64,000 nt of DNA. Source: Anaerococcus octavius. GTDB lineage: Bacteria > Bacillota > Clostridia > Tissierellales > Peptoniphilaceae. The stretch covers positions 372,001-436,000 of the forward strand of contig NZ_UFTA01000002.1 of assembly GCF_900445265.1 (NCBI RefSeq), in the 5' to 3' direction. The notes beneath the pieces were generated by a model, which saw only the letters and a list, made by a program, of their open reading frames with translations, was not told the origin of the DNA and did not search any database. Both the position numbers and the translations under genes were made by a program. Of this stretch, positions 24,535-56,765 are shown piece after piece. How positions within the stretch are numbered: position 1 is the stretch's first letter; each line of letters begins with the position of its first letter.

Positions 24535-24651
24535 ACTAGTATTTTGTATAGATAAATATAATAAAGAATAGTAGAGAAATTTGTCTTGAATTTTGCAAAA
24601 TTTATTTATATATTATTAAATCTAATTAATACAAATTTAAGGAAGGGAATC

Positions 24652-24990
24652 ATGACAGAATATTTTAAAAGTAGCGATTTAGATAAATTTAATGAAGGTA
24701 AACTTGGAGATTTGGATAAAGAAAATTGGGATAATTTTTTAAATTACTATGCAAATATAATGGGAGAAGGCAAACTAGCTGTAAGAACTAAAGCTCTAAT
24801 TGCATTAGCTGTTGCACATGCAGAAAAATGCCCATATTGTATAGATGCATATACAACAAAATGCTTGGACTTAGGAATTAGCAAAGAAGAAATGATGGAA
24901 GCGGTTCATGTAGCTAGTGCAATGCAAGCAGGCATCACACTAGCTACAAGTGTTCAGATGAAAAATATAATTGATGAAATGGAATTTTAG
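24652..24990 (+). CDS. AhpD-like / arsenosugar biosynthesis-associated peroxidase-like protein
   Basis: Carboxymuconolactone decarboxylase-fold protein of the group found next to ArsS (TIGR04169-type). Seen: 112 residues; redox motif CPYCIDAY with Cys 62 and Cys 65, followed by Cys 73 and the HVASAMQAG helix, typical of AhpD-like proteins. Probably a small disulfide redox protein acting with the radical SAM enzyme whose gene starts at the base after its stop. The ATG at 24652 has AAGGAAGGG upstream; the TTG at 24586 is rejected because it has no ribosome site. The role in the pathway is not shown experimentally in the family, as far as I recall. Confidence 0.87.
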   Translation: MTEYFKSSDLDKFNEGKLGDLDKENWDNFLNYYANIMGEGKLAVRTKALIALAVAHAEKCPYCIDAYTTKCLDLGISKEEMMEAVHVASAMQAGITLATSVQMKNIIDEMEF

Positions 24991-25962
24991 GTGGATTATT
25001 TCAAAAAAATAAACAAAGCAGTTCCTAGATTTGATGATAAAGTCGGATATAAGATAAAAACAAAAAACGAAATTGATACTTTACAAGTAAATCTTACTAG
25101 AAGGTGTAATTTATCTTGTAAGCACTGTCATCTTTCATGCAATCCAAATAGAAGTGAAGATATGTCTATGGATGTTGCAGATAAAGTTATTGATTTATTA
25201 AAAAATTATGATTTTAAGACACTTGATATCACAGGTGGTGCTCCAGAAATGAGTCAGGTTTGTAAATATTTAATTTCTAATGCATCAATGTTTGGTAAAA
25301 AAGTGATGATTCGTTCTAATCTGACTATTTACAATGATCCGAAATACCAAAATATTCCTAATTTTTTAAAAGAAAATAAGGTATATATCATAGCTAGCCT
25401 TCCATTTTATGAAAAGGAAAAAACTGACAAAATGAGAGGAGTTGGAGTTTTTGAGGATTCTATTAAAGTACTAAAAACGCTTAATAGTTTAGGCTATGGC
25501 AAGAATCCAGACCTTAATTTAAACTTAGTCTATAATCCTTCTGGAGCTATGATTCCTCAATCTCAAGAAGAACTAGAAGATGTATACAGGACTAAACTAT
25601 TAGATGAATATAAAATAGTATTTAATAATTTATTTGTTATTACTAATTCTCCCATAGGCAATTTTGGTAAATGGCTAGATAAGTCTAATAACTTAAATAG
25701 GTATATGAAAAGACTTTATAATTCCTATAATCCAGTTGTAATCAATGATGTAATGTGTAAAAATACTCTATCAGTTGACTATGATGGTAAAATTTATGAT
25801 TGTGATTTTAATTTGTCATTAAAAATGGGAGTGAAATCTAGTAATAAAACTATATTTGATATTAGTAAATATGATTTAGAGGATAGAGAGATTGTAACTG
25901 TAAACCATTGTTATAGTTGTACAGCAGGATCTGGATCCTCATGAGGTGGTTCATTGGAGTAG
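24991..25962 (+). CDS. arsS: ArsS-type radical SAM enzyme with selenocysteine (TGA 25942-25944)
   Basis: Radical SAM enzyme of the rSAM/SeCys family (TIGR04167, PF12345), proposed to transfer the 5'-deoxyadenosyl group to methylated arsenic. Seen: cluster motif CNLSCKHC near residues 36-43, followed by CHLSCNP; DITGGAPEMS; and a Cys-rich end VNHCYSCTAGSGSS. A conventional reading stops at 25944, but family members continue as GSS(C/U)GG. Here TGA is followed by GGT GGT TCA TTG GAG TAG, so translation gives GSSUGGSLE and ends at 25962, with Sec at residue 318. A hairpin in the right place (next entry) supports this. GTG start follows directly after the previous stop. Sec insertion genes are not in the window. 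Confidence 0.88.
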
Positions 25963-25993: not shown

Positions 25994-27061
25994 ATGACAG
26001 ATATCAGAAAAAAAGTTAGTGAATATTATAGCAAGATTACTACTGAGAATGAAGGAAATATGTAAACAAATATATGTTCATGTGAACGTGATTCTATGCT
26101 AAATTATATAAAAGAGATTACAAAAGAAATACCAGATGAAATAATAAGTCGTTTTTATGGCTGTGGTTCACCTATTCCAAGAACAATTGAAGGTATGACT
26201 ATTCTTGATCTAGGATGCGGAACTGGTCTTGATTGCTATATTTTATCAAAACTAGTAGGAGAAAATGGAAAAATAATTGGCGTATATATGACAGGTAGTC
26301 AGCTAGAAATTGCCAATAAGTATAAAGAAGATATGGCTAAAATATTTGGATATAAAAAATCAAATGTAGAGTTTAAAAAAGGATATATAGAAGATTTAGA
26401 ATCCTTAGGTATTGAAGATGAAACAATTGACGTAGTTATATCTAACTGTGTAATAAATTTATCACCATTTAAAGAAGAAGTTTTTAAAGAAATTTTTAGA
26501 GTTTTAAAACGTGGTGGCGAATTATATTTTTCAGATATTTTCGCAGATAGAAGAGTTCCAGAAAGTATTTCAAATGATGAAATTCTTAGGGGAGAATGTC
26601 TTGCAGGAGCAATGTATAGAGAAGACTTTAGAAGGCTGATGGCTAAGATAGGTTGGCTAGATTTTAGATATATGTCTAGTAAAGAATCTTCTATTGACAA
26701 TGAAGAATTGGAAAATTTTCTAGGAAACATTAATTTTTATTCTGAAACTATTAGTGCTTTTAAAATTCCAGATTTAATAGAAGATATTTGTGAAGATTAT
26801 GGTCAATTTGTAAAATATAATGGTGGTATTACAAATAATGAATTTTATTTTGATTTAGATGATCATCATAGATTTTTCCTAAATAAAGCAGAAGCAGTTT
26901 GTGGAAATACTGCAGCAATGCTAGAAGAAACAAGGTATAAAAAATATTTTGATATAATAGGAGATAGAAATAATCATTTTGGACCTTTTGCTGGTTGTTC
27001 TAATTTTCATAATTCATCTAGTGATGATGGTCAAGCATCTGCAAATAGTTGTTGTTGCTAA
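25994..27061 (+). pseudogene. arsM: ArsM-like arsenite methyltransferase, interrupted by in-frame TAA
   Basis: SAM-dependent methyltransferase of the ArsM family. The reading frame starts at ATG 25994 (AAAGG upstream) but has TAA at 26063-26065, residue 24; it is otherwise open to 27061. Downstream ATG 26096 could give 321 residues. Seen: TNICSC just after the stop (like TNACC of ArsM), FYGCG with Cys 57, SAM loop LDLGCGTGLD, C152 (SNCVINL) and C202 (RGECLAGA), and a SANSCCC end. C152-C202 spacing of 50 equals that of C174-C224 in algal ArsM. The usual acidic ribose-binding residue in GVDMT is Tyr here (Y98). A protein from 26096 would lose the first Cys. Either damaged or expressed as a shorter enzyme. 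Confidence 0.8.
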
Positions 27062-32002: not shown

Positions 32003-32766
32003 ATGAAAAATTATAAAAATTTGTGCTAGCTTTTGCATTAACAGGAGCAGTTTTGACAGGATGTAACAACAAAGATTCTGCAAATGATGATAAGGCAGAA
32101 ATAAACGAAACTACTATAACAGAACAAGCAGAAAACACAAATGAAACTGATACAAATGAACAAGAAGAAAAAACATCTGATAATGACACAACATCTGAAG
32201 AGATAAAAGGCGTTAGCAAAGATAATAATATTGTAGTTGATAAAGAAAATCAAACTGTTACTATATACACAACTTTCAATGGTAAATTTTTAACTGAATC
32301 AACAAGACATTTAGTTGTATCCGAAACAGGAAAATTTGGTGATAAACCAGTATTTGTAGCTAATACACCACCAGCAGATTTCCACCAAGCACTATTAGAT
32401 ATTGGTGCAAAACCAGGAGATAATATGACACCTGAAAATGCTGAAGAAACAACATCTGAAGGTACTCCACTAGAAATCACTGCTTATTGGGATGGAAACG
32501 AAGAGGGGACAAATGTAAATGATATAGTGAAAGATTCTAATGGTAAAGATCTAGATATTAGATTTACAGGTAACCTTGATCGTTCTAATGAAATGAAAAC
32601 AGGATGCCTATCTTGTCTTGATTCATGTACTGTAGGTATTTCTTCTAATGCTAACTATCCACTAGGTTCAGTAGAAAAAACAAAAACTGTTGAATTTAGT
32701 GTAGATGAAGATAAGGCTCCAGAAGATGGCACACCAGTTGCACTAGTTTATACAATTAGAGGATAA
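32003..32766 (+). CDS. YdjY-domain-like lipoprotein with one-base frameshift in the signal peptide
   Basis: Predicted surface lipoprotein. AAGGAGAG and ATG at 32003 start MKNYKNL but hit TAG after eight codons. Adding one A to the run at 32015-32019 gives MKNYKKFVLAFALTG and the lipobox LTGC, then reads open to 32766. A GTG at 32023 begins the same frame but is 25 bases from the ribosome site and lacks basic residues. The mature part has an acidic spacer, then a domain with RHLVVSETGKFGDKPVF and, near the end, TGCLSCLDSCTVGISSN, whose cysteines may form a disulfide or bind a metal or cluster. This matches the YdjY-type domain. It overlaps the next gene by one base. Confidence 0.75.
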
Positions 32767-44618: not shown

Positions 44619-46067
44619 ATGAATAGAATAATTTTCTTTAGTAAAGCGCCAAATCTTATAAATAGCAAAACTAGACTAGAAAAATTTTTAAATGAAAATG
44701 AACGCCTAGAATTAATGAGAAAGCTTATCAAACAAAATTATAAGTTAGTAGAAGATAAAAACTTTAGCTCGATAATTTATTATTATGGAGACCTTTCAAA
44801 TATTGCTTTCTTAGAAGGTCAAAAAACTCCTCAATCAGGTAATGATCTGGGAGAAAAAATGAAAAATGCAATATACAATGAACTAGATATTTATAGTAAG
44901 GTAGCACTTTTTGGATCAGATTTAGAAAATTTGAGTAAAAATCACATAGAAGAAGCATTTAAAAAACTTGATAACTTTGACATAGTAATAGCACCAAGTA
45001 AAGATGGTGGCTATGGTTTAGTAGCGATGAAAGAAAAAATAGATATTTTTACAAATATAAAGTATTCTACACCATTCGTTTTAGAAGATACTATAAAGCA
45101 AATAAATAAATTGAAAAAAACATACTATTTATTAGATCCGATAAGAGATATAGATACAATCTCTGATTTGATAATTGCTGAGTTTGATAATGATAATGTC
45201 ACAGAGCTCGGGCATGGTGAATATAATTTAAATTATAGATTAAATAATGAAGTAATTAGGATAAATTTAGCGTCTCAAATAGGCCTTGGTGAAAAACAAT
45301 TAAAATATGAATATGATGCCTTAAAAGTCTTAGAAAAATCAGGAGTAACTCCTAAACCCTATAAATTTTATGAGAAAGGTAAATTTTTACCAAAAAGTTT
45401 TATGACTATGGAGTATGTAGAGGGTAGACCTCTTAATTATAAAAGTGATATGGACATTGCTGCGAAGCTTTTAAGTTCTGTTCATAATTTAAGAGGAGAG
45501 TATGATAATTTCATATGCGCAAAAAAACCATTTCAATCTATGTTTGATGAATTTGTTTCTATGTTTAGCTATTATCAAGCTTATGAAAATAAGGACTTAG
45601 AAGTAGAAGCAAAAATTAATAAATTCCTAAATATTGCTAAATCCTCCGGCTTAGATGCTGAAATTAAAAAACCTTGTATCATAAATACGGAATTAAATAA
45701 TAGAAACTTTATTATAGGTAAACATCCGGTAATAATAGATTGGGAAAAACCCATTATAGGAGAGTGTGAGCAAGATTTAGCTCATTTTCTAGTACCTACA
45801 ACTACAAATTGGAAAACAGATACAATTTTAACTGAAGAAGAAATGTTATTATTTTTAAAAGTTTATGAACAGTATAGAAAAGTAGACTATGATAAGCTTT
45901 ATAAATATCTAATGTTTAACTCTCTTAGGGGGATAACTTGGTGTTCTATGGCCAAGGTTGAGTATGAAAAAGGCAGATTTTTAAGTAACGATGACACACT
46001 GGCTAAAATTAATAAGTTTTTAAGTTTAGAATTTTTAAATATGTTGGAAAAATTTTATAGGATATGA
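44619..46067 (+). CDS. Fusion: rSAM/selenodomain-associated transferase 1 (DUF2064) plus APH/choline kinase-like domain
   Basis: Two enzymes in one chain. Residues 1-185 match the DUF2064/TIGR04282 nucleotide-sugar transferase group: IIFFSKAPNLINSKTRL at the start, VALFGSDLENLSKNHIEEA, and IAPSKDGGYGLVAM. Residues about 195-460 match aminoglycoside phosphotransferase/choline kinase folds: ELGHGEYNLNYRLNNEVIR, a catalytic-loop-like NTELNNRNFI and metal site VIIDWEKPIIGECEQDLAHF. In this kinase loop the usual HxDxxxxN reads NTELNNRN, so the catalytic His/Asp are altered and activity is uncertain. Known: TIGR04282 proteins were proposed to work with the Sec radical SAM enzyme. First gene of a seven-gene operon; TTTAGGAGC ahead of ATG. 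Confidence 0.82.
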   Translation: MNRIIFFSKAPNLINSKTRLEKFLNENERLELMRKLIKQNYKLVEDKNFSSIIYYYGDLSNIAFLEGQKTPQSGNDLGEKMKNAIYNELDIYSKVALFGSDLENLSKNHIEEAFKKLDNFDIVIAPSKDGGYGLVAMKEKIDIFTNIKYSTPFVLEDTIKQINKLKKTYYLLDPIRDIDTISDLIIAEFDNDNVTELGHGEYNLNYRLNNEVIRINLASQIGLGEKQLKYEYDALKVLEKSGVTPKPYKFYEKGKFLPKSFMTMEYVEGRPLNYKSDMDIAAKLLSSVHNLRGEYDNFICAKKPFQSMFDEFVSMFSYYQAYENKDLEVEAKINKFLNIAKSSGLDAEIKKPCIINTELNNRNFIIGKHPVIIDWEKPIIGECEQDLAHFLVPTTTNWKTDTILTEEEMLLFLKVYEQYRKVDYDKLYKYLMFNSLRGITWCSMAKVEYEKGRFLSNDDTLAKINKFLSLEFLNMLEKFYRI

Positions 46068-46068
46068 T

Positions 46069-46512
46069 ATGGATAAAGAAAAATTAGAAGAACTTTCAAA
46101 AAAAGAATATAACTGCTCTCAAACTGTTTTTGCATATTTTGCTGATGATTTGGGCATGGACGAAGAACTGGCAATGAAAACAGCTACAGCTTTTGAAAGG
46201 GGCATGTTTAAGTCAGAAACTTGTGGATCTCTAACAGGAGCTTATATGGCACTAGGTTTAAAATATGGATCAACAGATTTTGAAAAAAAATTAAACTTAC
46301 AAGAAATGGTTCACAAACTAGATGCTGAGTTTGAGCAAAGAAACAAAAGTAAAAAATGTATAAAACTTTTAGGTGTGAATGTAAACACTGAAGAAGGAAT
46401 GAATGAGTCGCTAGAAAAAGATTTACTAGCAAGTGTTTGCGGTGTGTGCATAAGTTCAGCTATAGAAATCACAGAAAAAATTATGGAGGAATATGATGCA
46501 GATGAAAAATAA
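46069..46512 (+). CDS. C_GCxxG_C_C family redox protein
   Basis: Cys-rich helical protein of the PF09719-type family. Seen: 147 residues with CSQTVFAYF near residue 17, GMFKSETCGSLTGAYMALG near 45-63 (the GxCG part), Cys 99 in KKCIKLLG, and VCGVCISSAIEI near the end. The ordered cysteines suggest a bound cluster or redox-active pairs. Family members often sit next to selenium- or metal-related transporters and redox enzymes; the function is not established. It begins two bases after the fused transferase and overlaps the lipoprotein gene downstream by 20 bases. Confidence 0.85.
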   Translation: MDKEKLEELSKKEYNCSQTVFAYFADDLGMDEELAMKTATAFERGMFKSETCGSLTGAYMALGLKYGSTDFEKKLNLQEMVHKLDAEFEQRNKSKKCIKLLGVNVNTEEGMNESLEKDLLASVCGVCISSAIEITEKIMEEYDADEK

Positions 46513-47803
46513 ACTTTTAGCTAGTTTACTATGCTTAGGGCTTTTAACAGGATGTGGCAATAATACCAATGAGCAAGAGGCTAGTCAAAAAGCACCATTT
46601 GAAACCAGCCAAGAAGAAGTAAAGGAAGAAAGAGAAGAAAATAAAGAAGTAGCAGAAACAAGCGATGTTATAAGTGAAGTAAACTTTGATGAAATAGCTA
46701 AAAAAGCAGAAGGAACATCTGTAAACTTATATGGATGGGGTGGGGATGATAAGCGTAACCAATGGTTAGATGATTATATAATTCCTAAAATGAAAGAAGA
46801 TTATGATATTGATGTAAATCGTGTAGGCATGGATATCGAGGAAATCTTAAACCTTATGGTAGCTGAAAAAGATTCTGAAGATGGTGATGTAGATGTAGTT
46901 TGGATAAATGGAGAAAACTTTGAAAATGCCAAAAATAATGGCTTACTTTATGGTCCAATAACTCAAGTACTACCAAACTTTAACGACTATGTAGACGGGG
47001 AAGATGAAGGAATTAAATATGACTTTGGTGAACCAGTAGAAAATATCGAAGCACCATACGGGGGAGCTCAATTTGTATTTATGTATGATAGTTCAAAAAT
47101 TGATAATCCACCTAAAAATGCCGAAGAACTATTAGAATTAGCAAAAGCAAATCCCGGTAAAATAACTTATGCATCTCTACCAGACTTTACAGGCTCAGCT
47201 TTTATTAGAAATATTATTTCTGATATTCAAGGCTACGAAGACTTCATGAATAAAGATTTAACAAAAGAAGAACTAAAAGAAATGTTAAAACCAACTATTG
47301 ACTACCTAAATGAATTAAAACCATACCTATGGAATGAAGGACAATCTTACCCAGCAGATAACCCAACTTTAACAAACATGTTTGCAGATGGGGAAGTAAT
47401 CATGGCTATGAGCTATAACCCAAATGCAGCATCAACAGGTGTGGTTGATGGACAATTTAATGAAAATGTAAGAACAGCAGTATTTGATAAGGGAACAATT
47501 GCAAATACACACTTTTTAGCTATAAGTAAAGGTTCTTCAAATAAAGATGCGGCTACTGTCCTTATCAATTTAATCTTATCACCAGAGGCGCAAATATCAA
47601 AAGCAGATCCAGAAGTCTTAGGGGATCTCCCAATCATTGACTATGATAAATTAACTGATGAGCAAAAGAAAATGTATGATGAGATTCCATCTGGAGAATA
47701 CACTCTTTCTACAAAAGAATTAGAAGAACATAGAATCCCAGAGATGCCAGCAAATATTGTACCACTCATAGAAGAAATATGGGAAGAAGAAGTACTAAAC
47801 TAG
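46493..47803 (+). CDS. YnjB-like ABC transporter substrate-binding lipoprotein
   Basis: Extracytoplasmic binding protein of a YnjBCD-type importer. Seen: lipobox LLTGCG (Cys 21 from ATG 46493), an acidic linker to about residue 60, then the type II solute-binding fold with NLYGWGGDDKRNQWLDDYI, VDVVWINGENFENAKNNGLL, YGGAQFVFMYDSSKI, ITYASLPDFTGSAFIRNII and GEVIMAMSYNPNAA. These blocks follow the E. coli YnjB pattern (WGG...W.....WINGENF...GLLYGPF...FVFIYDS...PDFTGSAFIR). The ligand is unknown in the family. GGAGGA in the C_GCxxG gene serves as ribosome site. The start lies inside the preceding gene. Confidence 0.87.
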   Translation: MMQMKNKLLASLLCLGLLTGCGNNTNEQEASQKAPFETSQEEVKEEREENKEVAETSDVISEVNFDEIAKKAEGTSVNLYGWGGDDKRNQWLDDYIIPKMKEDYDIDVNRVGMDIEEILNLMVAEKDSEDGDVDVVWINGENFENAKNNGLLYGPITQVLPNFNDYVDGEDEGIKYDFGEPVENIEAPYGGAQFVFMYDSSKIDNPPKNAEELLELAKANPGKITYASLPDFTGSAFIRNIISDIQGYEDFMNKDLTKEELKEMLKPTIDYLNELKPYLWNEGQSYPADNPTLTNMFADGEVIMAMSYNPNAASTGVVDGQFNENVRTAVFDKGTIANTHFLAISKGSSNKDAATVLINLILSPEAQISKADPEVLGDLPIIDYDKLTDEQKKMYDEIPSGEYTLSTKELEEHRIPEMPANIVPLIEEIWEEEVLN

Positions 47804-48636
47804 AAAATTTACTAAGCTGTACAGGATTAATGCTTATTTTACTATTAATCCTAATTGGCTTTAGTAAATCATTATTAATTAGTTTTGGACTTTTTAAAGA
47901 AGTAGGGCTTGATAGTTTTACCTTTGACTTTTACAAGGAAGTTCTAAATGATAAGACTTTTATATCAAGCCTTATTTTTTCTTTGAAAATTTCAGTTATT
48001 TCTAGTATTTTAGCAGTTATAATTGGCATTTTTTTATCTTATGGAATATTTAATAGCAAAATTTACGATATTTATTTAAAGATTCCAGTAATACTACCTC
48101 ATATTATTATGGCGATTTTACTAGTAAATATCTTTTCTCAAACAGGAGTTATTGCTAGAGTTTTTTATAAATTAAACCTTGTAGATGATTCACACTCATT
48201 TGTTCAGTTTTTTTATAATAAAAGTGCAGTGGGAGTTATTTTGACCTATGCTATAAAGGGTGGTGCTTATGCTGGTATGGTTTTTTTAGGAATTTATAGG
48301 AATATAGGCTCAAATCAATTAGCTGCTGCAAAAAATTTAGGAGCAAGCGATTGGCAAGAATTTTATTATATAATATTTCCATTTATAAAAAAAGAAACTA
48401 TTGCAACATTTATCATTTTATTTAATTTTTCGATTAGTTCCTATGAAGTTCCACTACTAATTGGTCCTACAAGTCCAAGGACTCTTGCTGCAAAATCCTA
48501 TATAGAATTTACAAAAAATAGCTTTTCTTATAAGCCAAAAGCTCTGGTAATAAATATATTTTTAAGTTTAATTGGCATAGTTTCCCTAATAATTTTGTAC
48601 TTAGCAGAGGATAAAAATTATGAAAAAGATTTCTAA
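47779..48636 (+). CDS. ABC transporter permease, YnjC-like first subunit
   Basis: Membrane subunit of the YnjBCD-like importer. Seen: 285 residues, six hydrophobic segments, and the EAA-type loop near residue 185, AAAKNLGASDWQEFYYIIFP, which docks onto the ATPase. YnjC of E. coli is one fused permease; here it is split into two proteins (see next gene). Start lies 25 bases inside the lipoprotein gene. Confidence 0.86.
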   Translation: MGRRSTKLENLLSCTGLMLILLLILIGFSKSLLISFGLFKEVGLDSFTFDFYKEVLNDKTFISSLIFSLKISVISSILAVIIGIFLSYGIFNSKIYDIYLKIPVILPHIIMAILLVNIFSQTGVIARVFYKLNLVDDSHSFVQFFYNKSAVGVILTYAIKGGAYAGMVFLGIYRNIGSNQLAAAKNLGASDWQEFYYIIFPFIKKETIATFIILFNFSISSYEVPLLIGPTSPRTLAAKSYIEFTKNSFSYKPKALVINIFLSLIGIVSLIILYLAEDKNYEKDF

Positions 48637-49408
48637 ATTTATTTTATATATTTATATAGTTCTTTTAATTTTTGCAGGAATAGACCTAATATTTACAAGC
48701 TTTAGGCAAAATTATCCATGGCCAAACTTAATTTTAGCAAACTATTCATTGCGTTCTTATAATTATTTATTAAAAGACAAGAAATTTATGGTAGGTCTAT
48801 TTAATTCACTATCAATAGGCTTATGTTCAAGTTTGCTTTCTCTTATAATGTCGATACCTCTTGCGAAAAAATTATATTATAAGCAGAAAGCTTTTAAAAT
48901 GATTAGTTTTGTGATATTTTTACCATTTTTAATTGGTGCAACCAGTATTGGCCTAGGCTTGCAATTATTTTTTAAACAAATGGGATTTGCGGGGTCAAAG
49001 ATTTTGATTATCATATGCCAATGCCTACTTATAATCCCCTATGAAGTAAGAATTATAAGACCTGCATATAGTTTTTTAGGAGATAATATAATTTATGCTG
49101 GAAAAATGCTTGGTGCCAGTGATAGTAATATTAGAAAAGAAATAATATTTCCAATACTTGCACCCTTTATAAAAACTGCGTTGATTATGGGTTTTATCCT
49201 ATCGATTAGCGATTACTATTTAACACTAGTCTTAGGGTCAGGTCTTGTAGAGACATTTATGACTGTAGCGTTTCCTTTTTTTGTATCAAGAGATAGAGCA
49301 ATTTCCTCAACTATTAGTATATTATTTCTACTAATCAATATTATCTTTATAATAATAGTAGAAATTATATTTAGATTGATTTTTAGGAGCAAAAAATGGA
49401 CCTTATAA
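48620..49408 (+). CDS. ABC transporter permease, second subunit
   Basis: Second membrane subunit of the same importer. Seen: 262 residues, six hydrophobic segments, and an EAA-type loop, YAGKMLGASDSNIRKEIIFP, near residue 155. Overlaps its neighbours by 17 and 13 bases, so the proteins are made together. The two permeases are related to each other in the EAA loop and in overall layout, consistent with a heterodimer. Confidence 0.87.
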   Translation: MKKISKFILYIYIVLLIFAGIDLIFTSFRQNYPWPNLILANYSLRSYNYLLKDKKFMVGLFNSLSIGLCSSLLSLIMSIPLAKKLYYKQKAFKMISFVIFLPFLIGATSIGLGLQLFFKQMGFAGSKILIIICQCLLIIPYEVRIIRPAYSFLGDNIIYAGKMLGASDSNIRKEIIFPILAPFIKTALIMGFILSISDYYLTLVLGSGLVETFMTVAFPFFVSRDRAISSTISILFLLINIIFIIIVEIIFRLIFRSKKWTL

Positions 49409-50316
49409 GTGCAAAAAACATAAGCAAATCATATAAAACAAAAAAAATTTTAGATAATATAAGTTTTGATATAGGATCTGGGCAAGTTTTATCAATAGTT
49501 GGTAATAGCGGTTCAGGAAAAAGTACTTTATTAAAAATATTATCAGGAATAATAGATGACTTTGACGGAAATATTTATCTAAATGACAAAAATATAACAA
49601 AGGTTGATATGAAAGAGCGAAAGTTTATACTTATGTTTCAAGATGATGAATTATTTCCTCATATGACTATTTTTGATAATATAGCTTTTGGCCTAAAAAT
49701 TAATAGATTGGATAAAGGTTATATAAGTAAAGAAGTAGAAAAATATTTAGAATTAGTAGGCTTATATGATCATAAAAATAAATACCCATCCCAGTTATCT
49801 GGTGGGGAAAAGCAAAGGGTATCTTTAGCTAGAAGTCTGATTGTAAAACCTAAAATGCTTTTACTAGATGAACCATTTACAGCTCTAGATCAAACTTTAA
49901 GAGAAAATCTTAGAAATGAAACTTTTAAAATCATAAAAGAGCAAAATATCCCAACTTTATTTGTAAGCCACGATATAAATGAAGCAGTGGAAGTAGCTGA
50001 TAAGCTTGCAATCTTATCAAATGGTAAATTTTTAGCCTATGATAATCCAAGAAAAATTTTTGAAAATCCAAAAAATATTGAAGCAGCAAAATTTATTTTC
50101 AAGGATAATATTATAGAAAATAAGCTTATTAAAAAGTCTGATGTGGAGATACTTGAAGGAGAAGGTTATATTATAGTTGATAAAGTTTACAAGGGAGATT
50201 ATTTTACCTATACTTTAAGCGGCAATTACAAACTGTTAGTAGACAGTCCAAAAGAGTTTTTTGTAAATGATAATGTTGGAGTACAGATAAATAGTATTAT
50301 TGAATTGGAGGAGTAA
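49396..50316 (+). CDS. ABC transporter ATP-binding protein (YnjD-like)
   Basis: ATPase of the importer. Seen: Walker A IVGNSGSGKSTLLKILSG near residues 35-52, signature LSGGEKQRVSLARSL, Walker B MLLLDEPFTALDQ, switch His in FVSHDINEA; 306 residues, with about 70 residues beyond the core that resemble a small regulatory C-terminal domain. The pattern (LDQTLRENLRNE) is that of polyamine/sulfate/iron importers, the same class as YnjD. Overlaps the second permease by 13 bases and the next gene by one base. Confidence 0.92.
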   Translation: MDLISAKNISKSYKTKKILDNISFDIGSGQVLSIVGNSGSGKSTLLKILSGIIDDFDGNIYLNDKNITKVDMKERKFILMFQDDELFPHMTIFDNIAFGLKINRLDKGYISKEVEKYLELVGLYDHKNKYPSQLSGGEKQRVSLARSLIVKPKMLLLDEPFTALDQTLRENLRNETFKIIKEQNIPTLFVSHDINEAVEVADKLAILSNGKFLAYDNPRKIFENPKNIEAAKFIFKDNIIENKLIKKSDVEILEGEGYIIVDKVYKGDYFTYTLSGNYKLLVDSPKEFFVNDNVGVQINSIIELEE

Positions 50317-51137
50317 TGAAAAAAGTAATAATAGATACTGATTGTACTATAGATGTTAAAGGGTGTGACCTAGATGATGCTTTTGCAATTCTTTTTTTGA
50401 TTGCCCATCCAGATATAGAAATAAAACTAATTACAACTACATTTGGTAATAATAACGAAGATGTAACCTATAAGGCTACAAGACGTATGCTAGATGATTT
50501 AAATATAAATATTCCACTAATAAAAGGCGGCTTATATACAAATGATGCAGGTGAGGCTATAAGAAATGAAGTAGAAAAAAACAACGATATAATTATTCTT
50601 TCTTTAGGCTCAACTACAAACACTCAAAAAGCATTAGCTCTTGGCATGGATGCTAAAAAAGTAAAATCATTTGTAGCTATGGGTGGTATCACAGATAAGC
50701 TACGCTTTAACAAAAAAATAATGAGTGAACTAAATTTAAGTATTGATTATTTATCAACTATTTATTGCCTATCTAGACTAGATAACATCCATATAATAAC
50801 TGGAAATAATTGTATGAAGCATAAATATCAATTGCCAGCTAATCCTTACTATAAAAGTAATTTTATGAATTATTTAAAGCCATCTTTAAAAAGAGTTACA
50901 GAAGAATTTATGGATGAATTTGGAGAAAATGAACTAGTGGTATGGGATGCTTTGGCAGCTTTATATATTACAAATCCAGAATTTTTTTCACATAGGTATA
51001 AAAATATAAGCTTAGACGAACATTTATTAAATGGATACTTGATAGATGGAGATGATAAAAAAGTAAATCTGCCTGAAATCAAAGAAAATATAAACGCTAT
51101 GGAGTATATAGTAAATGTAATCGAAAAAAATAATTAA
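50316..51137 (+). CDS. Nucleoside hydrolase family protein
   Basis: Ribonucleoside N-glycosidase fold; splits base from ribose. Seen: N-terminal IIDTDCTIDVKGCDLDDAFA, where the DTD of the usual DTDxGxDD motif is present but followed by a longer stretch before LDD; TTTFGNNNEDVTYKATRRML; IILSLGSTTNTQKAL; and C-terminal VVWDALAALYITNPEFF, with the metal-binding Asp. The family needs four Asp around calcium; all four candidate Asp are present, but the opening loop is altered. It overlaps the ATPase by one base, so it belongs to the importer operon. A role in stripping adenine from an adenosyl product is a reasonable guess. Confidence 0.83.
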   Translation: MKKVIIDTDCTIDVKGCDLDDAFAILFLIAHPDIEIKLITTTFGNNNEDVTYKATRRMLDDLNINIPLIKGGLYTNDAGEAIRNEVEKNNDIIILSLGSTTNTQKALALGMDAKKVKSFVAMGGITDKLRFNKKIMSELNLSIDYLSTIYCLSRLDNIHIITGNNCMKHKYQLPANPYYKSNFMNYLKPSLKRVTEEFMDEFGENELVVWDALAALYITNPEFFSHRYKNISLDEHLLNGYLIDGDDKKVNLPEIKENINAMEYIVNVIEKNN

Positions 51138-51140
51138 AAA

Positions 51141-51168
51141 AAGACGAGCAAAGTTCTGCTCGTCTTCT
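51141..51168. terminator. Bidirectional terminator between the two convergent selenodomain operons
   Basis: AAGACGAGC at 51141-51149, loop AAAGTTCT, GCTCGTCTT at 51158-51166, with A-run and T-rich flank. Placed between the end of the plus-strand importer operon and the end of the minus-strand operon. Confidence 0.9.
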
Positions 51169-51820
51169 ATATATTCTTGTAAATCTCAGCAATTTTTTCT
51201 ACATTATAACCATTCCTATACATTTTTTGTAAAAATTTCATCATAATACCAGTCTTAAATTCTTTGTTTGTAAATTTTCTTGATGAAGAATATATAGGAT
51301 AATCTAGTTGTTTTATTTTATATCCAGCTTCTTTTAAATCTAAGGATAATTGATAATCTTCCATAAGGGCTATATTTTTGTAGCCACCTATTTTTTCAAA
51401 AATATCCTTTTTTATAAATATGCCTTGATCTCCAAAGGCTATGTGTTTAGTCTTAACTCTTAAATTTGAAAAAAATTCAATAAAATCTAGCTTTTGATTA
51501 GTTGGTGTAAAATTTATAGTAAAGCAACCGACATCAAGATTTGAATTTTCTATTAAATTTATACAGTCACTTCCTATAATGCTATCACAATGAAGGAAAA
51601 ATAAATAATCACCTCTAGCATACTTAGCAGCAGCATTCATTTGTCTAGACCTATATTTTGTTTCTTGAATTTTGGGATAAGAGATCATATCATAGGTCCC
51701 ATCTGTGCTAAAACCGTCAGTAAATATTATATCAAAATCTCCTTTTATTTTTGATAAAACATCTTCGATTTTTTTTATATTTTCTTTTTCATTATAAGTT
51801 GGAATTATTATTGTTACCAT
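51167..51820 (-). CDS. rSAM/selenodomain-associated transferase 2 (GT2 family)
   Basis: Family 2 glycosyltransferase-fold protein of the TIGR04283 group. Seen: VTIIIPTYNEKENIKKIEDVL at the start; IIFTDGFSTDGTYDMIS (the DGxSxDGT of GT2); SRQMNAAAKYARGDYLFFLHCDS with the QMN and HxDS signature of this group; and GGYKNIALMEDYQLSLDLKE. The start overlaps the VTT protein gene by 29 bases; last gene of a seven-gene minus operon. Known: TIGR04283 was proposed to act with TIGR04282 and the Sec radical SAM protein TIGR04167. Confidence 0.87.
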   Translation of the reverse strand: MVTIIIPTYNEKENIKKIEDVLSKIKGDFDIIFTDGFSTDGTYDMISYPKIQETKYRSRQMNAAAKYARGDYLFFLHCDSIIGSDCINLIENSNLDVGCFTINFTPTNQKLDFIEFFSNLRVKTKHIAFGDQGIFIKKDIFEKIGGYKNIALMEDYQLSLDLKEAGYKIKQLDYPIYSSSRKFTNKEFKTGIMMKFLQKMYRNGYNVEKIAEIYKNI

Positions 51821-52463
51821 TTATTTTCTCAATTAAAATTTTCAATAATAACGTTACAACTGTAAAAGCAAGTAATAAGATTAAAGATTTTTTAAATTCT
51901 GGACTAGTTACATCACCTATATTTGTGCCTACATTTAGATAAATAAGCATGCCAGGAATTACTCCAAAAAAAGTTGCCATTAGATATGGGAAAAATTGTA
52001 TTTCTGTAAGCCCTGCTAGGTAATTTTCTAAGATATAGGGAATAGCCGGTATAAGTCTAGTTATAAAAAATGTTGATATTAGTTTTTTCTGATCTTTAGT
52101 ATAGATTATATTAAAGTATTTTGGACCTATTTTTTCTTTTAATTGTTTATATACCTTATCTTTTGCAAATCTATTGGAAATTAAATACATAAGGGAAGTA
52201 TTTGTTAAAACAGCTATCATAGTTAAAAAAAATCCCTTGCAAAAACCAAAAAGTGTTCCAGCTATAACAACTATGCTTAAGGCTGGTACAAATAGGGCAG
52301 GAAGTATAGTAAATGCTAGTATATAGCCGATAGGAGCTAGATAACCCATAGCTTCTATTTTAGCTTGAAGAGTATTAATATTTATGGATTTATTTAACCA
52401 TACTATAAAAGCTATCGCAATGATAGCTTTTATAATATTATAAACTTGTTTTGTGTTTTTCAT
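51792..52463 (-). CDS. TVP38/TMEM64 family (VTT domain) membrane protein, copy 2
   Basis: Polytopic membrane protein of the DedA-like VTT family. Seen: about six hydrophobic segments; PALFVPALSIVVIAGTLFGF near residue 55; RFAKDKVYKQLKEKIG; and TRLIPAIPYILENYLAGLT (the conserved RxxPxxPxxxxNYxxGLT element). Function in bacteria unknown; family members act as lipid scramblases or transport selenite or metals in some cases. ATG 52463 with AGGA upstream; an in-frame upstream Met lies inside the neighbouring gene. Overlaps both neighbours. Confidence 0.87.
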   Translation of the reverse strand: MKNTKQVYNIIKAIIAIAFIVWLNKSININTLQAKIEAMGYLAPIGYILAFTILPALFVPALSIVVIAGTLFGFCKGFFLTMIAVLTNTSLMYLISNRFAKDKVYKQLKEKIGPKYFNIIYTKDQKKLISTFFITRLIPAIPYILENYLAGLTEIQFFPYLMATFFGVIPGMLIYLNVGTNIGDVTSPEFKKSLILLLAFTVVTLLLKILIEKINGNNNNSNL

Positions 52464-53169
52464 TGTATCTTTTCCTAAAGAAGGCAATAGCAACTGCAAG
52501 AATAGATATAATTATGACAAACATAAACACTCCACGCACTCCACCGTCGAGTTCTCCGCCTGTGTAGGAATATACGATAGTTGCTGGTAATTGTCCTAGT
52601 CCTGTAGCTAGGAAAAATCCCCAAAAGTCCATTGAGGTTAGACCAGCAGCATAGCTAACAACATCAAAAGAAATGAATGGTAAGAGTCTTGCTATTAGAA
52701 TAGTGTGATTACCATATCTTGCAAAAAAGTCTTCTATATTTTCAAGAGCACCTTTACTAGAAAGCTTAATTACGGCATCACGGCCTAAAGATCTTGCTAT
52801 AAAAAAGCATAGGGCTGCACCAACCATAGCAGAAGACCAGGAAAGGATAGCTCCTTTGACCCATCCAAATATAGCTGCATTGGCAAGAGTAATTAAAACT
52901 GCAGGGATTGGTGCGACAATAGATTGTAATATCATTAGTAAAAATGAAATAACTGCTGCTTTTTTACCAAAACCTCTAATATACTCGATTACACCATTTA
53001 ATCCACCAGTACTTATAGCTCTTACCGCATTACTAATACCATTTCTAAATGACGGTATCAGGAAATATGCTAGTATAAGTATAGCAAGCGGAATTAGAAC
53101 TGCTAGCTTAGAAGATTTTTCTAGTCTTTCTTCTTTAGGATCTGTGTTTTCTAAATGATTTGTCGGCAT
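52438..53169 (-). CDS. TVP38/TMEM64 family (VTT domain) membrane protein, copy 1
   Basis: Second VTT protein in tandem. Seen: 243 residues; PIPAVLITLANAAIFGWVKG near residue 85; FFIARSLGRDAVIKLSSKG; and LIARLLPFISFDVVSYAAGLT, the family's key motif. It diverges from copy 2 (about one third alike by eye), so it is not a recent duplication. A hydrophilic N-terminus of 24 residues precedes the first helix. It starts 10 bases after the stop of the rhodanese lipoprotein gene. Confidence 0.87.
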   Translation of the reverse strand: MPTNHLENTDPKEERLEKSSKLAVLIPLAILILAYFLIPSFRNGISNAVRAISTGGLNGVIEYIRGFGKKAAVISFLLMILQSIVAPIPAVLITLANAAIFGWVKGAILSWSSAMVGAALCFFIARSLGRDAVIKLSSKGALENIEDFFARYGNHTILIARLLPFISFDVVSYAAGLTSMDFWGFFLATGLGQLPATIVYSYTGGELDGGVRGVFMFVIIISILAVAIAFFRKRYNEKHKTSL

Positions 53170-53178
53170 AATTTATCC

Positions 53179-54021
53179 TTATTTTTCAGATAAATCATAT
53201 CCATCATATTCTTTTGTTCCATCAAAAGCGTTGATTACTTCGTGACCATCTTCAGCTAATTTATTAGCTATATCAAAAGATTTATTTCCTGAATAGCAAT
53301 GTGTTAAGAATGGTTTATCTGTTGGTAAAGTTGGAAGTAATTCATCAACTTGATCAGATGGTACATTTATTGCTCCTGGCATATGACCTTCGTCGTAGTC
53401 TTTAGCATCACGTCCATCTACGATTGTATAGTCTCCACTTTCAGCTAGTTCTTTAAATTCATCTCCAAGTACTGTTTTTGCTTTAGTAATTGTTGTATAT
53501 TCAAAGTCTTCCATTCCTTCTGCATTATAGACATCAGTAAAATCATTATCAACTAGTGTTTTATAAGCATCTTTTGAATCTTCAGCTTTATCAGCAACAA
53601 CTACTACTGATTTATCCTTCCAATCTTCAATTTCTGATAACTTATCTTCTAGATCAGTAGCTGGTATGGAAATAGCATGTTTGATATGTCCATCTTTATA
53701 AGAATCTTCATCACGAACATCGATTACAAGATAATTTTCTTTCTTTTTGTTATCTTCTTCGATTTTATCTAGTTCTTCACCTGTCATTTCTTTGATTTCT
53801 TCATCAGCAGTATCATCTGTAGATTCATCAGTATTTTCTTCTGTATCAGCTTCTTCAGATGTTTGTTCATCTGTTGCAGTATCATCTTTAGTTTCTGCTG
53901 TATCAGTAGTTTCTGTTGTTTCGGTATTTTCTGGTTCAGTTTTGTTTGCATCATTTCCACAAGCTGAAAGTGCGAAAGTACCGATTAGCATAAGTGTAAG
54001 TAATTTGTTTGATCTTTTCAT
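53179..54021 (-). CDS. Double-rhodanese lipoprotein
   Basis: Surface-anchored sulfurtransferase-like protein. Seen: lipobox LSACG with Cys 21; an acidic Thr/Glu/Asp spacer to about residue 80; first rhodanese fold about 85-180, where the catalytic Cys is missing (the active loop reads VVVVADKAEDSK); second fold about 185-280 with active Cys in FLTHCYSGNKSFD. An inactive first and active second domain is the common layout of two-domain sulfurtransferases. AGGAGAA precedes its ATG on the minus strand. Its start overlaps the stop of the small membrane protein gene. Confidence 0.9.
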   Translation of the reverse strand: MKRSNKLLTLMLIGTFALSACGNDANKTEPENTETTETTDTAETKDDTATDEQTSEEADTEENTDESTDDTADEEIKEMTGEELDKIEEDNKKKENYLVIDVRDEDSYKDGHIKHAISIPATDLEDKLSEIEDWKDKSVVVVADKAEDSKDAYKTLVDNDFTDVYNAEGMEDFEYTTITKAKTVLGDEFKELAESGDYTIVDGRDAKDYDEGHMPGAINVPSDQVDELLPTLPTDKPFLTHCYSGNKSFDIANKLAEDGHEVINAFDGTKEYDGYDLSEK

Positions 54022-54398
54022 ATTATTTCTCCTCTTTTAAAAAGTTCTAAAATATTTACCAATATCAATAGCGATGATATGGCATATTTCGTTAGTTTAA
54101 AAATATTGATGTCCACTAAAACTAATATTAAGATTGCAAATATAGATATAATACTTATTGGACTAATATATTTATATTTAAACCATTTATAAATTATATA
54201 TGTTAAAAATAAAATTGCAAACAAAATATATATCAATTTAATGTGGTAATTGTTTTCTAAATTATAATTATAGTAAATTAAAGTTCTTTGCACTCCCATT
54301 TTCTTTTTTGTAAAGTATTGGAGTAAAAGTCCAATTATTATGAAAAGAATTTGGAAAATGCTTATTATTTTATTTTTATTCTTTGCTTGCTTTGTCAT
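54018..54398 (-). CDS. Small uncharacterised membrane protein
   Basis: No family recognised. Seen: about 126 residues from ATG 54398, hydrophobic segments near 12-28, 55-70, 78-98 and 100-118, basic loops. The ATG lies 23 bases inside the end of the rhodanese pseudogene and its stop overlaps the start of the second rhodanese gene, so translation is coupled. Located between two surface rhodaneses, it could be a membrane partner for them, but nothing shows it directly. Confidence 0.65.
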   Translation of the reverse strand: MTKQAKNKNKIISIFQILFIIIGLLLQYFTKKKMGVQRTLIYYNYNLENNYHIKLIYILFAILFLTYIIYKWFKYKYISPISIISIFAILILVLVDINIFKLTKYAISSLLILVNILELFKRGEII

Positions 54399-55563
54399 TA
54401 GATAAGTTGCCAACTGTTGTCATTTCAGCATTATCTTTAGGATCACCAACTTGTACTGGCAATTCATCATGCATTTGCCACTCATTCCAGCCGCCATCAA
54501 ATAACTTAGCATCTATTCCTTTTTCATAGAATTTTAAAACTGGTAGGGCAGCTCTCCAACCTGTACCACAATAAAATACCATTTCTTTACTAGGATCAAC
54601 ACCTTCTTTTTTTAGCATATCTAGCATATCAGTGTAGGAGATGTATGTGCCGTTTTCATTTTTATAGTCAGCTTCATCATGGCCATAGATTGCACCTGGA
54701 AGTTCTCCAGCTTTTGGAATATAGGTATAATCGCTAGTTTCTCCGATATATTCTTCATAAGCTCTCGTAGATATATATTGAACGTCACTATTTTCATCTT
54801 CTATGTCTTTTTTAGCTTCATCTAAGCTTACTATCATTTCTGGATGTGCTGGATATTCTGCTTTAAAGTCGTCTTTGGCTTCTGCTTTATTTTCTTCTTT
54901 TTCAGTTTCGTAACCTTTATCCATCCAAGCTTTGATACCACCATCGATTAATTTTACGTTGTCTGCACCTTCTATTAAGTAGGCTAAGGCAACTCTTGGT
55001 GCACCAGAATCGGGACCATATAAAAATACTGTAGTATCTTTGTCTATACCATTATCTAGCATTGATTTTACAATGTCATCATCGCTTTTAAAATTCCAAA
55101 CTGGTCCTTCTTCTATAGAATCAGTATTAATATGGATAGCGCCTGGGATATGATTTTTCAAATAATCTTGGCTAGCATCAGACTCTCCCCAAGTTACTTC
55201 AGCTATTATATAGTTATCAAGTTCTTCTTTGCCATCGATAACTTCTTTTACATCGTCAGCTGTAACGAAGATTTCTCTTTTTTCATTTCCACAGCAATCA
55301 AGATTTTCTTTGTGATCTGTTTTATCTGATGTTTGTTTGTCAGAATTTTTTGTATTTTCACTATCTTTGTTAGTACTTTATTCTGTTTTTTCGCTATCTT
55401 CTTTTTGATCTTTATTATTATCTGCTTCTTCTGCTTGTGTGTTATTATCTTTGTTAGTATTAGCGTTTTGATTAGAACAAGCTGCAAAAGTTATAGTTAA
55501 GAAAAGAGAGAAAAAAGAAAGACCAATTTTTCTGATAAGTTGATTGATATTTAATTTTTCCAT
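54376..55563 (-). pseudogene. Rhodanese lipoprotein interrupted by in-frame TAA
   Basis: Two-domain thiosulfate sulfurtransferase-like lipoprotein. Seen: signal peptide and lipobox TFAACS, acidic linker ending SEKTE, then TAA at 55378-55380; the same frame goes on with STNKDSENTKN and a rhodanese start EIFVTADDVKEVI. First rhodanese fold lacks Cys (TVFLYGPDSGAPRV); second has active Cys in VFYCGTGWRAAL. A Met at 55161 lies inside the first fold, too late to give a whole domain and without signal peptide. A one-base change (for example AAA or GAA to TAA) would explain the break. The stop is in a low-complexity linker. A real loss or a sequence error cannot be told apart here. Confidence 0.83.
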
Positions 55564-55581
55564 AGTTTCCTTTTAACTCTC

Positions 55582-56508
55582 CTATTTATAAAATTTTGCT
55601 TTTAATGCATTTTTAAAATAGTCCGTTTTTACTTCTTCATCTATGCCCAAAAATACTGATGCAAAATGATGGACCTTGTTGTATTTTGAAAAACGCATAG
55701 AACAAGTTGCACAATATGTGTAGATTTCCTCATTTTTTATAGAAGCAGTCATATTTTCTGCAATTTCTTTTTCTTTTTTGCTTGCAAGGCCTCCGGCTCC
55801 ACAACAATTTGTATCTACAAATTTATCATTGCATTTTGGAGCATGTTTTTTGATAATAGTAAAAATTTCTTTATTATATCTATCAGAACATGGGAAAAAT
55901 ACATTGCAAGGATTTTTTATATCCTTTATATATTCGTATTCATCTAGCCATTTAAATATTGAAATTATTTTTACCTTGTATTTATTTTGCATGTGATGAT
56001 AGCAATTTGGACATGCAGTGACAATCCTATCTATTTTTAAATCTTCAATTTGCTTTTCTAAAGACTTGCTAGGCTCTTCCTTAAAACCAGTGCTAGCGAC
56101 AGGATTTTTACAGCAATCAATAGAAAAGTCAAAACCATTTTTTTTAAATAATTCTATTAAAGCTTTGGAATTTTCTGGATAAAAAGCAGGAAAATTACAA
56201 CCTAGATACAAAAGATCTTCAGATCTGCCTTTATTTTTAGCTAGATTTTTAAAAGGATAAGATTCTTTGTTAAGTTTGACATGCTTGTATTTTGGATTAT
56301 TTTTTCTAAAAGTAAGTGAGATATACTTACCATTTAGATCCTTTGGACAAACATAGCTGCACTTATTGCACAAAAAGCATGAATAAGCTAGATCTTTTCT
56401 ATTAGTAAAGCCTAATAAATTAATATTATATTTACTTAAAAATGGACAATTATCAGTGCACAAACCACACTTAATACAATTGTCCTCAACGTATTTTAGG
56501 TAATCCAT
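55582..56508 (-). CDS. Fe-S oxidoreductase, HdrD/GlpC-like (two 4Fe-4S clusters plus CCG domains)
   Basis: Electron-transfer subunit. Seen: ferredoxin motifs CIKCGLCTDNCP (near residue 12) and CFLCNKCSYVCP (near residue 45); then two CCG-type domains with CCKNPVASTG, TACPNCYHHMQ, and DTNCCGAGGLASKK, followed by YCATCSMRF. CCG domains bind an unusual cluster in heterodisulfide reductase. No flavin or membrane domain is attached. Start ATG 56508 has AGGA ahead; five more residues would come from ATG 56523. First gene of the minus operon (rhodaneses, VTT, GT2), suggesting it supplies electrons to that pathway. Confidence 0.86.
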   Translation of the reverse strand: MDYLKYVEDNCIKCGLCTDNCPFLSKYNINLLGFTNRKDLAYSCFLCNKCSYVCPKDLNGKYISLTFRKNNPKYKHVKLNKESYPFKNLAKNKGRSEDLLYLGCNFPAFYPENSKALIELFKKNGFDFSIDCCKNPVASTGFKEEPSKSLEKQIEDLKIDRIVTACPNCYHHMQNKYKVKIISIFKWLDEYEYIKDIKNPCNVFFPCSDRYNKEIFTIIKKHAPKCNDKFVDTNCCGAGGLASKKEKEIAENMTASIKNEEIYTYCATCSMRFSKYNKVHHFASVFLGIDEEVKTDYFKNALKAKFYK

Positions 56509-56765
56509 ATTATTTCCTATCATTAATTTATTAATTTTAAGTGTGTACTAAAGCCAAAGGCTTATCTTAAAATTCCCTTTATAGCTTATAAATATAATCA
56601 AACTTCATAGTGTACTTATTGCAATTATGAAAATGTTATCATATACTCGTCTTTATATTAACATAAAAATATATATTGTCAATACAGCGATGAGAAGGGA
56701 TAATAATTTAGAGTATAATATAAAAAATATGTATGATATAATTAGTCCAAATGATGGAGGATAAA

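Follow-up and report, generated by a model that had tools for sequence, protein, structure and literature searches.

Two convergent operons of Anaerococcus octavius: T1/T2 transferase genes with a YnjBCD-type importer as an alternative to ArsS

Gene content of the two operons

The window analysed here is a 64,000-nucleotide stretch of Anaerococcus octavius (RefSeq assembly GCF_900445265.1, contig NZ_UFTA01000002.1, positions 372,001 to 436,000 of the forward strand), and all positions are counted from its first letter. It carries two convergent seven-gene operons that encode the transferases T1 and T2, a YnjBCD-type importer, a nucleoside hydrolase (NH), two surface rhodaneses and two VTT membrane proteins, and a separate locus for the radical SAM selenoprotein ArsS. 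Genes of the plus operon (44619-51137) each overlap the next or lie 1 bp apart, and the minus operon (51167-56523) lies 29 bp off it. Coordinates and gene order had been given correctly in an initial annotation of this DNA.

44619..46067, plus strand: T1, CofC-like nucleotidyltransferase fused to an APH/choline-kinase-fold domain (KIN) (TIGR04282, 139.1 bits, cut-off 134)
46069..46512, plus strand: C_GCAxxG_C_C redox protein (CGC) (family match)
46493..47803, plus strand: YnjB-type lipoprotein, substrate-binding protein of the importer (NF008633, PRK11622, YnjB family, 444 bits; 33% identity to E. coli YnjB)
47779..48636, plus strand: importer permease 1 (YnjC, N half) (family match, BLAST)
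48620..49408, plus strand: importer permease 2 (YnjC, C half) (family match, BLAST)
49396..50316, plus strand: importer ATPase (YnjD) (family match, BLAST)
50316..51137, plus strand: NH, separate clade in which a Trp precedes the last Ca-binding Asp (PF01156, alignment)
51167..51820, minus strand: T2, GT2-type transferase (TIGR04283, 189.9 bits, cut-off 182)
51792..52463, minus strand: VTT protein b (VTTb), nearer to E. coli YdjX, 27% identity (VTT_dom, BLAST)
52438..53169, minus strand: VTT protein a (VTTa), 50% identity to E. coli YdjZ over 220 aa (VTT_dom, BLAST)
53179..54021, minus strand: rhodanese lipoprotein B (RhoB), two rhodanese domains (family match)
54018..54413, minus strand: small membrane protein beside rhodanese A (recurs in 8 of 38 other T1/T2 loci)
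54376..55545, minus strand: rhodanese A (RhoA), YnjE-like, 37% identity, frame broken by TAA (family match, BLAST)
55582..56523, minus strand: 4Fe-4S/CCG-domain protein, resembling the C-terminal part of NF045663 (family match)

The small membrane protein matched no family among NCBIfam and Pfam. The end of ArsS lies 18.7 kb from T1; the gene of its AhpD-like partner (CMD) precedes it and an ArsM-like gene follows.

24649..24990, plus strand: CMD, AhpD-like protein, ArsS partner (TIGR04169, 146.5 bits, cut-off 120)
24991..25962, plus strand: ArsS, radical SAM selenoprotein with one in-frame TGA (TIGR04167, 406.3 bits, cut-off 300)
25994..27061, plus strand: ArsM-like methyltransferase, N-terminal part severed by an in-frame TAA (188 bits, cut-off 263)

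Distribution of the gene set and exchange of feeds

Co-occurrence was scored in a family panel of 110 genomes evenly drawn from the window's family and a phylum panel of 398 evenly drawn genomes, both samples and not the full groups. For a third panel, named genomes were scanned with a KIN alignment, which returned 399 relatives, and the best 80 were kept. ArsS was searched in the T1-positive and importer-positive genomes of the phylum panel and, in the third panel, at 50 of the best 80 loci (12 of the 30 omitted were family-panel genomes or near copies, and the others fell beyond a limit of 50 loci). Neighbourhood counts rest on purpose-built hidden Markov models with our own cut-offs, under which ArsS genes with TGA are under-counted. 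The NH of the cluster was called at >280 bits; the gap from 288 to 103 bits, the next match in the family panel, sets its clade apart from other NHs.

T2 was present in 39 of 110 family-panel genomes (38 above the cut-off) and T1 in the same 39 (36 above the cut-off). All 28 genomes with ArsS and all 12 with the YnjB importer protein fell inside these 39. The KIN domain was found in 24: all 12 importer genomes, 11 of 26 with ArsS only, the single genome with neither, and none of the 71 T1-negative genomes. Because T1, T2, ArsS, importer and KIN are confined to the same 39 genomes, the tie of both operons to the TIGR04282/04283/04167 gene set is real, as the initial annotation had claimed; the TIGRFAM comments are taken to propose that transferases 1 and 2 act with the TIGR04167 protein. 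Around T1 or T2, up to 8 kb away, the other 38 family genomes with both transferases had the Fe-S protein (37), VTT (35), rhodanese (32), C_GCAxxG (23) and small membrane protein (8), so that the operons form a genuine grouping and the association of the 14 genes exceeds chance. VTT proteins and rhodaneses accompany T1/T2 in ArsS and importer genomes alike and thus go with the core. Within the open-access PMC literature, no paper was found in which YnjBCD, VTT or rhodanese is connected with TIGR04282/04283/04167. Neither 'selenodomain' nor TIGR04283 gave a match there, and TIGR04282 and TIGR04167 appeared only in lists.

Of the 398 phylum-panel genomes, 32 had T1 (27 above the cut-off), 31 had the importer (30 above it) and 8 had both, the window's genome included (p = 0.0015); with the window's genome set aside, the importer lay 4-5 kb from T1 in 5 of 7 genomes that have both. 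Among the best 80 of the 399 KIN relatives, T1 stood within 10 kb of KIN in 70, T2 in 65, importer in 38, NH in 35 and ArsS in 14, and both importer and ArsS did so in 1. These loci come from Anaerococcus, Peptoniphilus, Ezakiella, Finegoldia, Gemella, Facklamia, Aerococcus, Campylobacter, Coriobacteriales and Anaerolineae.

Genomes with the gene set mostly have either the importer or ArsS, and seldom both. Among the 39 family-panel genomes with T1 and T2, 2 (the window's own, G000, and a congener, G107) had both, 26 had ArsS alone, 10 the importer alone and 1 (G101) neither (Fisher p = 1e-6, in a test that, like all those given here, treats related genomes as independent). The 31 T1-positive phylum genomes besides the window's comprised 11 with ArsS, 7 with importer, none with both and 13 with neither (p = 0.03), and ArsS was found in 0 of 23 importer-positive, T1-negative genomes of that panel. 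In the third panel (50 genomes), 2 of the 23 with the importer close to KIN had ArsS, vs 20 of the 27 without it there (p = 3e-6, a value that overstates independence because the rows hold related species, six of them Gemella); one of the two joint cases (L341) consists of two ArsS fragments under the cut-off. The cluster NH follows the importer: it occurred in 13 of 110 family genomes, 11 of 12 with importer vs 2 of 26 with ArsS only, and in neither the genome without feed nor the 71 T1-negative ones.

The gene set thus consists of a core (T1, T2, VTT proteins, surface rhodaneses and Fe-S/CCG protein) and a feed, which is usually either CMD-ArsS or importer, NH and KIN. Importer and NH appear to offer another way into the T1/T2 pathway. 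The initial annotation had instead cast importer, NH, T1/T2, rhodaneses and VTT proteins as steps of a single arsenosugar pathway started by ArsS. Such a pathway would agree with the presence of all these genes within 32 kb in the window, with both feeds in two Anaerococcus genomes and in Facklamia lactis (L293), and with the ArsS-only genomes G073 and G080, which keep NH beside T1 or ArsS. We nevertheless consider it clearly unlikely, given how rarely ArsS-positive genomes have the importer as well: 2 of 28 in the family panel, each an Anaerococcus, none of 11 in the phylum panel and 2 of 22 in the third panel. Co-occurrence with TIGR04167 therefore nearly fails for importer and NH, whose role as ArsS partners is not supported, and holds for rhodaneses and VTT proteins through the core.

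The two feeds also exchange in place. Neighbourhood maps gave the core order RhoB-T1(-KIN)-VTTa-VTTb-T2-FeS-CGC; in Ezakiella coagulans (L074) YnjBCCD-NH follows core-CGC, and in congeners CMD-ArsS (L066, L080) or NH-CMD-ArsS (L078) follows it. In Anaerococcus, L275 and L285 have the four importer genes between CGC and NH, the exact place where L276 and L277 lack them; the L285 genome is without ArsS and the L277 genome has it. On the T2 tree (64 rows), clusters must have changed from ArsS-only to importer-only or back at least 8 times, and three genera (g17, g22, g27) each hold genomes of both types. That the exclusion is a by-product of shared descent and whole-cluster transfer, with no functional replacement, appears highly unlikely in view of these switches, the same-slot exchange, the exact presence or absence of four genes in Anaerococcus and the recurrence of the exclusion in three panels. 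It gains from the counting of related genomes as independent, from the make-up of the 20 ArsS-positive third-panel genomes (six Gemella and two Clostridioides mangenotii records among them) and from the joining of some importer clusters across genera on the T2 tree.

Several observations weigh against an exchange of two feeds on one core. The Ezakiella importer clusters group on the T2 tree with Anaerococcus vaginalis (G101) and not with the Ezakiella ArsS clusters, so whole-cluster transfer may explain that case. Both feeds are carried by the window's own genome and by G107. Neither feed was found in 14 of 70 T1-positive genomes (1 family, 13 phylum), among them G241, which has NH, KIN, T1 and T2, and the importer genome G029 is without the cluster NH. 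The feed is, moreover, not just two-way, because 7 of the 13 neither-feed phylum genomes have another radical SAM gene in the cluster. Inside the T1/T2 clusters of G220, G240, G242 and G451 (L226, L233, L235, L237) this is a BioB-like protein, ArsS and importer being absent; in those of G255, G269 and G319 (L216, L227, L228) it is an Rv1681/ArsS-like protein (75-78 bits to TIGR04167). The remaining six had no radical SAM gene in the stretch examined, which for G392 is a contig of 4.7 kb.

Two genes of the window are interrupted. In rhodanese A an in-frame TAA (55378-55380, minus strand) falls in the linker; both of the surface rhodanese genes named in the initial annotation are there, and this one is not an intact frame. 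The ArsM-like gene has a TAA at 26063-26065 and is open from 26096. Unbroken copies of rhodanese A (390 aa, locus L085) and of ArsM are present in G107. These interruptions may reflect decay or an assembly fault, and the ArsS branch is possibly decaying in a genome that also holds the importer. A selenocysteine rhodanese, first suspected in the gap before rhodanese A, was dropped because the stop codon is TAA.

Some clusters depart from the usual form. Gemella loci L286-L291 read RhoB-RhoB-T1KIN-VTT with no T2 within 10 kb; outside these loci, an ArsS gene with an in-frame TGA is present in each of the six genomes. T1 and T2 are fused in a single frame in L091 and L095, the latter with two fused genes in tandem, and G454 (L225, L207) has three ArsS-type genes in one genome.

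Candidate mechanism and the place of arsenic

We tentatively favour, at a little short of an even chance, the reading that the 14 genes are one unit of conserved core and interchangeable feed, with salvage and sugar transfer as its mechanism. The order of import, base removal, activation, transfer and membrane processing is inferred from protein families and the exchange pattern. ArsS would make a 5'-deoxyadenosyl-arsenical inside the cell, or the importer would bring a comparable 5'-modified purine nucleoside (or riboside) from outside. NH would then strip the base, KIN would phosphorylate or otherwise prime the freed sugar, T1 would form an NDP-activated sugar and T2 would pass it to a membrane acceptor, e.g. 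a glycerolipid. VTT proteins, rhodaneses and Fe-S protein would move the product and process it, by sulfur or redox chemistry, at the cell surface. ArsS moves the deoxyadenosyl group onto arsenic, as stated in the part of the source seen (PMC12159101).

Clues from single proteins were mixed. PMC8910321, in the portion consulted, names the Trp preceding the last Ca-binding Asp as characteristic of the purine-specific group II NHs. The window NH shares this feature with that group: its W210-D211 pair was invariant in 15 of 15 aligned rows and, if ungapped, falls on positions 272-273 of 1hoz in a profile alignment. These positions would correspond to Trp260-Asp261 in the tagged enzyme from T. vivax. 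The signature would be compatible with adenine removal from an ArsS-like product. Against base removal by this enzyme, it differs from group II NHs in having no second Trp (beta3-alpha3 loop); the window protein has one Trp, and no second Trp column was invariant among the 15 rows. KIN adopts an APH fold in its predicted model (pLDDT 91.9) and matches APH, choline and homoserine kinases. A difference from active APH/choline-type kinases likewise counts against its proposed step: the fold is there, and the catalytic Asp is not, since the HxD motif reads Asn-Thr-Glu in 19 of 19 rows, with the Glu aligned to the Asp of 7s3l. KIN may therefore not be a sugar kinase. T1 has a homologue in the PDB, 3cgx, named nucleotide-diphospho-sugar transferase. 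The nearest solved relatives of YnjB were weak matches to polyamine and maltose binders, which do not discriminate between candidate solutes.

How far arsenic is involved was judged from ArsM, for which matches were accepted at E <= 1e-20 (35 in the family panel, just 6 of them above the 263-bit cut-off). Such a match was present in 25 of 28 ArsS-positive, 5 of 10 importer-only, 0 of 1 neither-feed and 5 of 71 T1-negative family genomes. As half of the importer-only genomes lack ArsM, arsenic is doubtful in that group, which speaks against the arsenical part of the favoured mechanism. An arsenic-free alternative is a genuine possibility that we rate as rather doubtful. In it, a lipid or surface sugar would be built by core and importer from a salvaged nucleoside or riboside of ordinary kind; ArsS would have been recruited later in some lineages, its product just passing through these enzymes, or would act on another substrate in these anaerobes. 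It accords with that absence of ArsM, with importer-VTT-rhodanese loci lacking T1/T2 or ArsS in 23 phylum-panel genomes and E. coli, and with the two other radical SAM types in T1/T2 clusters. It is opposed by ArsM in 25 of 28 ArsS-positive vs 5 of 71 T1-negative genomes, and by the ArsM enrichment that importer-only genomes still show (5 of 10, p = 0.002). Most of the stronger ArsM-like matches (L118-L144) have one in-frame TGA, as in selenoprotein ArsM.

In the portions seen of the literature found, no enzymes are assigned to the arsenosugar steps after ArsS. A testable order of steps follows from the strict distribution of T1, T2 and ArsS and from the swap with importer-NH, and human-associated anaerobes gain candidate genes for taking up or producing organo-arsenicals or ribosides related to them. 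The replacement pattern of ArsS and importer and the E. coli parallel described below are new; the pathway idea of the initial annotation was half right, and that annotation had missed that importer, VTT and rhodanese have counterparts in the E. coli operon.

Relation to the E. coli operon and other known systems

Importer loci were compared at 42 sites (the neighbour set of the window's row was entered by hand). The 19 with T1 had NH in 14, KIN in 15 and a YnjF-like protein in 1, and the 23 without T1 had YnjF-like in 18, NH in 3 and KIN in 1; only in G470 did YnjF-like stand together with NH/KIN. The YnjB tree required at least 6 changes between T1-positive and T1-negative. By family, the YnjF-like protein belongs to the CDP-alcohol phosphatidyltransferases (PF01066), and its best NCBIfam match, archaetidylinositol phosphate synthase, scored 84 bits, below that family's cut-off. 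Other neighbours were alike in T1-positive vs T1-negative loci (VTT 13 of 19 vs 14 of 23, rhodanese 10 vs 11, Fe-S/CCG 9 vs 10), and the same pattern was seen in named records of Cetobacterium, Ilyobacter and Metabacillus.

Further neighbours recurred at such loci. Two paired halves of a YedE/YeeE-type sulfur transporter were found at importer loci L217, L221, L230, L244, L246, L247, L249 and L250. At most of them a long NADPH oxidoreductase/dicluster protein (NF045663) was present too, L230 being the exception with a 172-aa piece only; together these neighbours point to sulfur or selenium. An MprF-type flippase-like protein (PF03706, c15) near VTT at L216, L226-L229, L235, L237, L238, L240, L251, L254 and L256 would fit a lipid product.

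E. coli K-12 (NC_000913, 1833401-1841403) has ydjX, ydjY, ydjZ, ynjA, ynjB, ynjC, ynjD, ynjE and ynjF adjacent, with ynjF on the opposite strand. Both VTT proteins, YdjY, YnjB, YnjC, YnjD and YnjE were matched by window proteins in BLAST (E 2.6e-10 to 4e-73, and 1.6e-8 for the second YnjC half). Identities were 50% for VTTa-YdjZ (220 aa), 42% for YdjY, 37% for RhoA-YnjE, 33% for YnjB, 33% for YnjD, 27% for VTTb-YdjX and 20-23% for YnjC. The YdjY counterpart sits 12 kb from the operons and has a CxxCxxxC stretch; proteins of its kind recur close to T1/T2 or ArsM in 8 fetched loci (cluster c19).

32023..32766, plus strand: YdjY-domain lipoprotein, 42% identity to E. coli YdjY (NF040466, 142 bits; BLAST)

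The two systems differ in that YnjF is present in E. coli and absent among the window's 14 proteins, that the window has T1, T2, NH and KIN whereas control searches with T1, T2 and ArsS gave no E. coli match, and that the window splits YnjC into two genes. The same controls matched Synechococcus elongatus with T1, T2 and ArsS alike, and Synechocystis likewise has an ArsS (PMC8552651). CMD gave no BLAST match to YnjA at E 1e-3, the two being AhpD-type by name only. In the parts of the sources seen, ydjXYZ-ynjABCD is tabulated among FNR-activated operons (PMC3688515) and the natural substrate of YnjE is called unclear (PMC10215317). For many other bacteria, E. coli among them, this set of importer, VTT and rhodanese would end in a CDP-alcohol transferase (YnjF) that replaces T1/T2. 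It follows from the parts common to the conserved E. coli operon that a model organism is usable for the pathway. A bolder extension, on the unlikely side but worth stating, is that the arsenosugar-type genes and E. coli ydjXYZ-ynjABCDEF are variants of one widespread anaerobic pathway that attaches a modified riboside to a membrane lipid, with rhodanese processing at the surface. Its entrances (ArsS, Ynj importer and NH, possibly further radical SAM enzymes) and its exits (T1/T2 or YnjF) would both be exchangeable, and importer species would take up the organo-arsenical, or an analogue of it, that ArsS species produce.

In methylthioadenosine/5-deoxyadenosine salvage the base is removed from a 5'-modified adenosine, after which an APH-fold methylthioribose kinase acts. 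This logic of nucleosidase and APH-fold kinase parallels NH and KIN, although the NH family is not that of MtnN and KIN has Glu for the catalytic Asp; methylthioribose kinase was not among the KIN matches listed, where a missing row excludes nothing. LicA/LicC or CofC-type pairs of kinase and nucleotidyltransferase differ in nucleotidyltransferase family and in gene context. The window also resembles the NCBIfam rSAM/selenodomain or arsenosugar set (TIGR04282, TIGR04283, TIGR04167, TIGR04169): all four members exceed their cut-offs here, and T1 and T2 co-occur strictly. As named, that set has no importer, NH or kinase-fold protein, which here form an alternative to ArsS.

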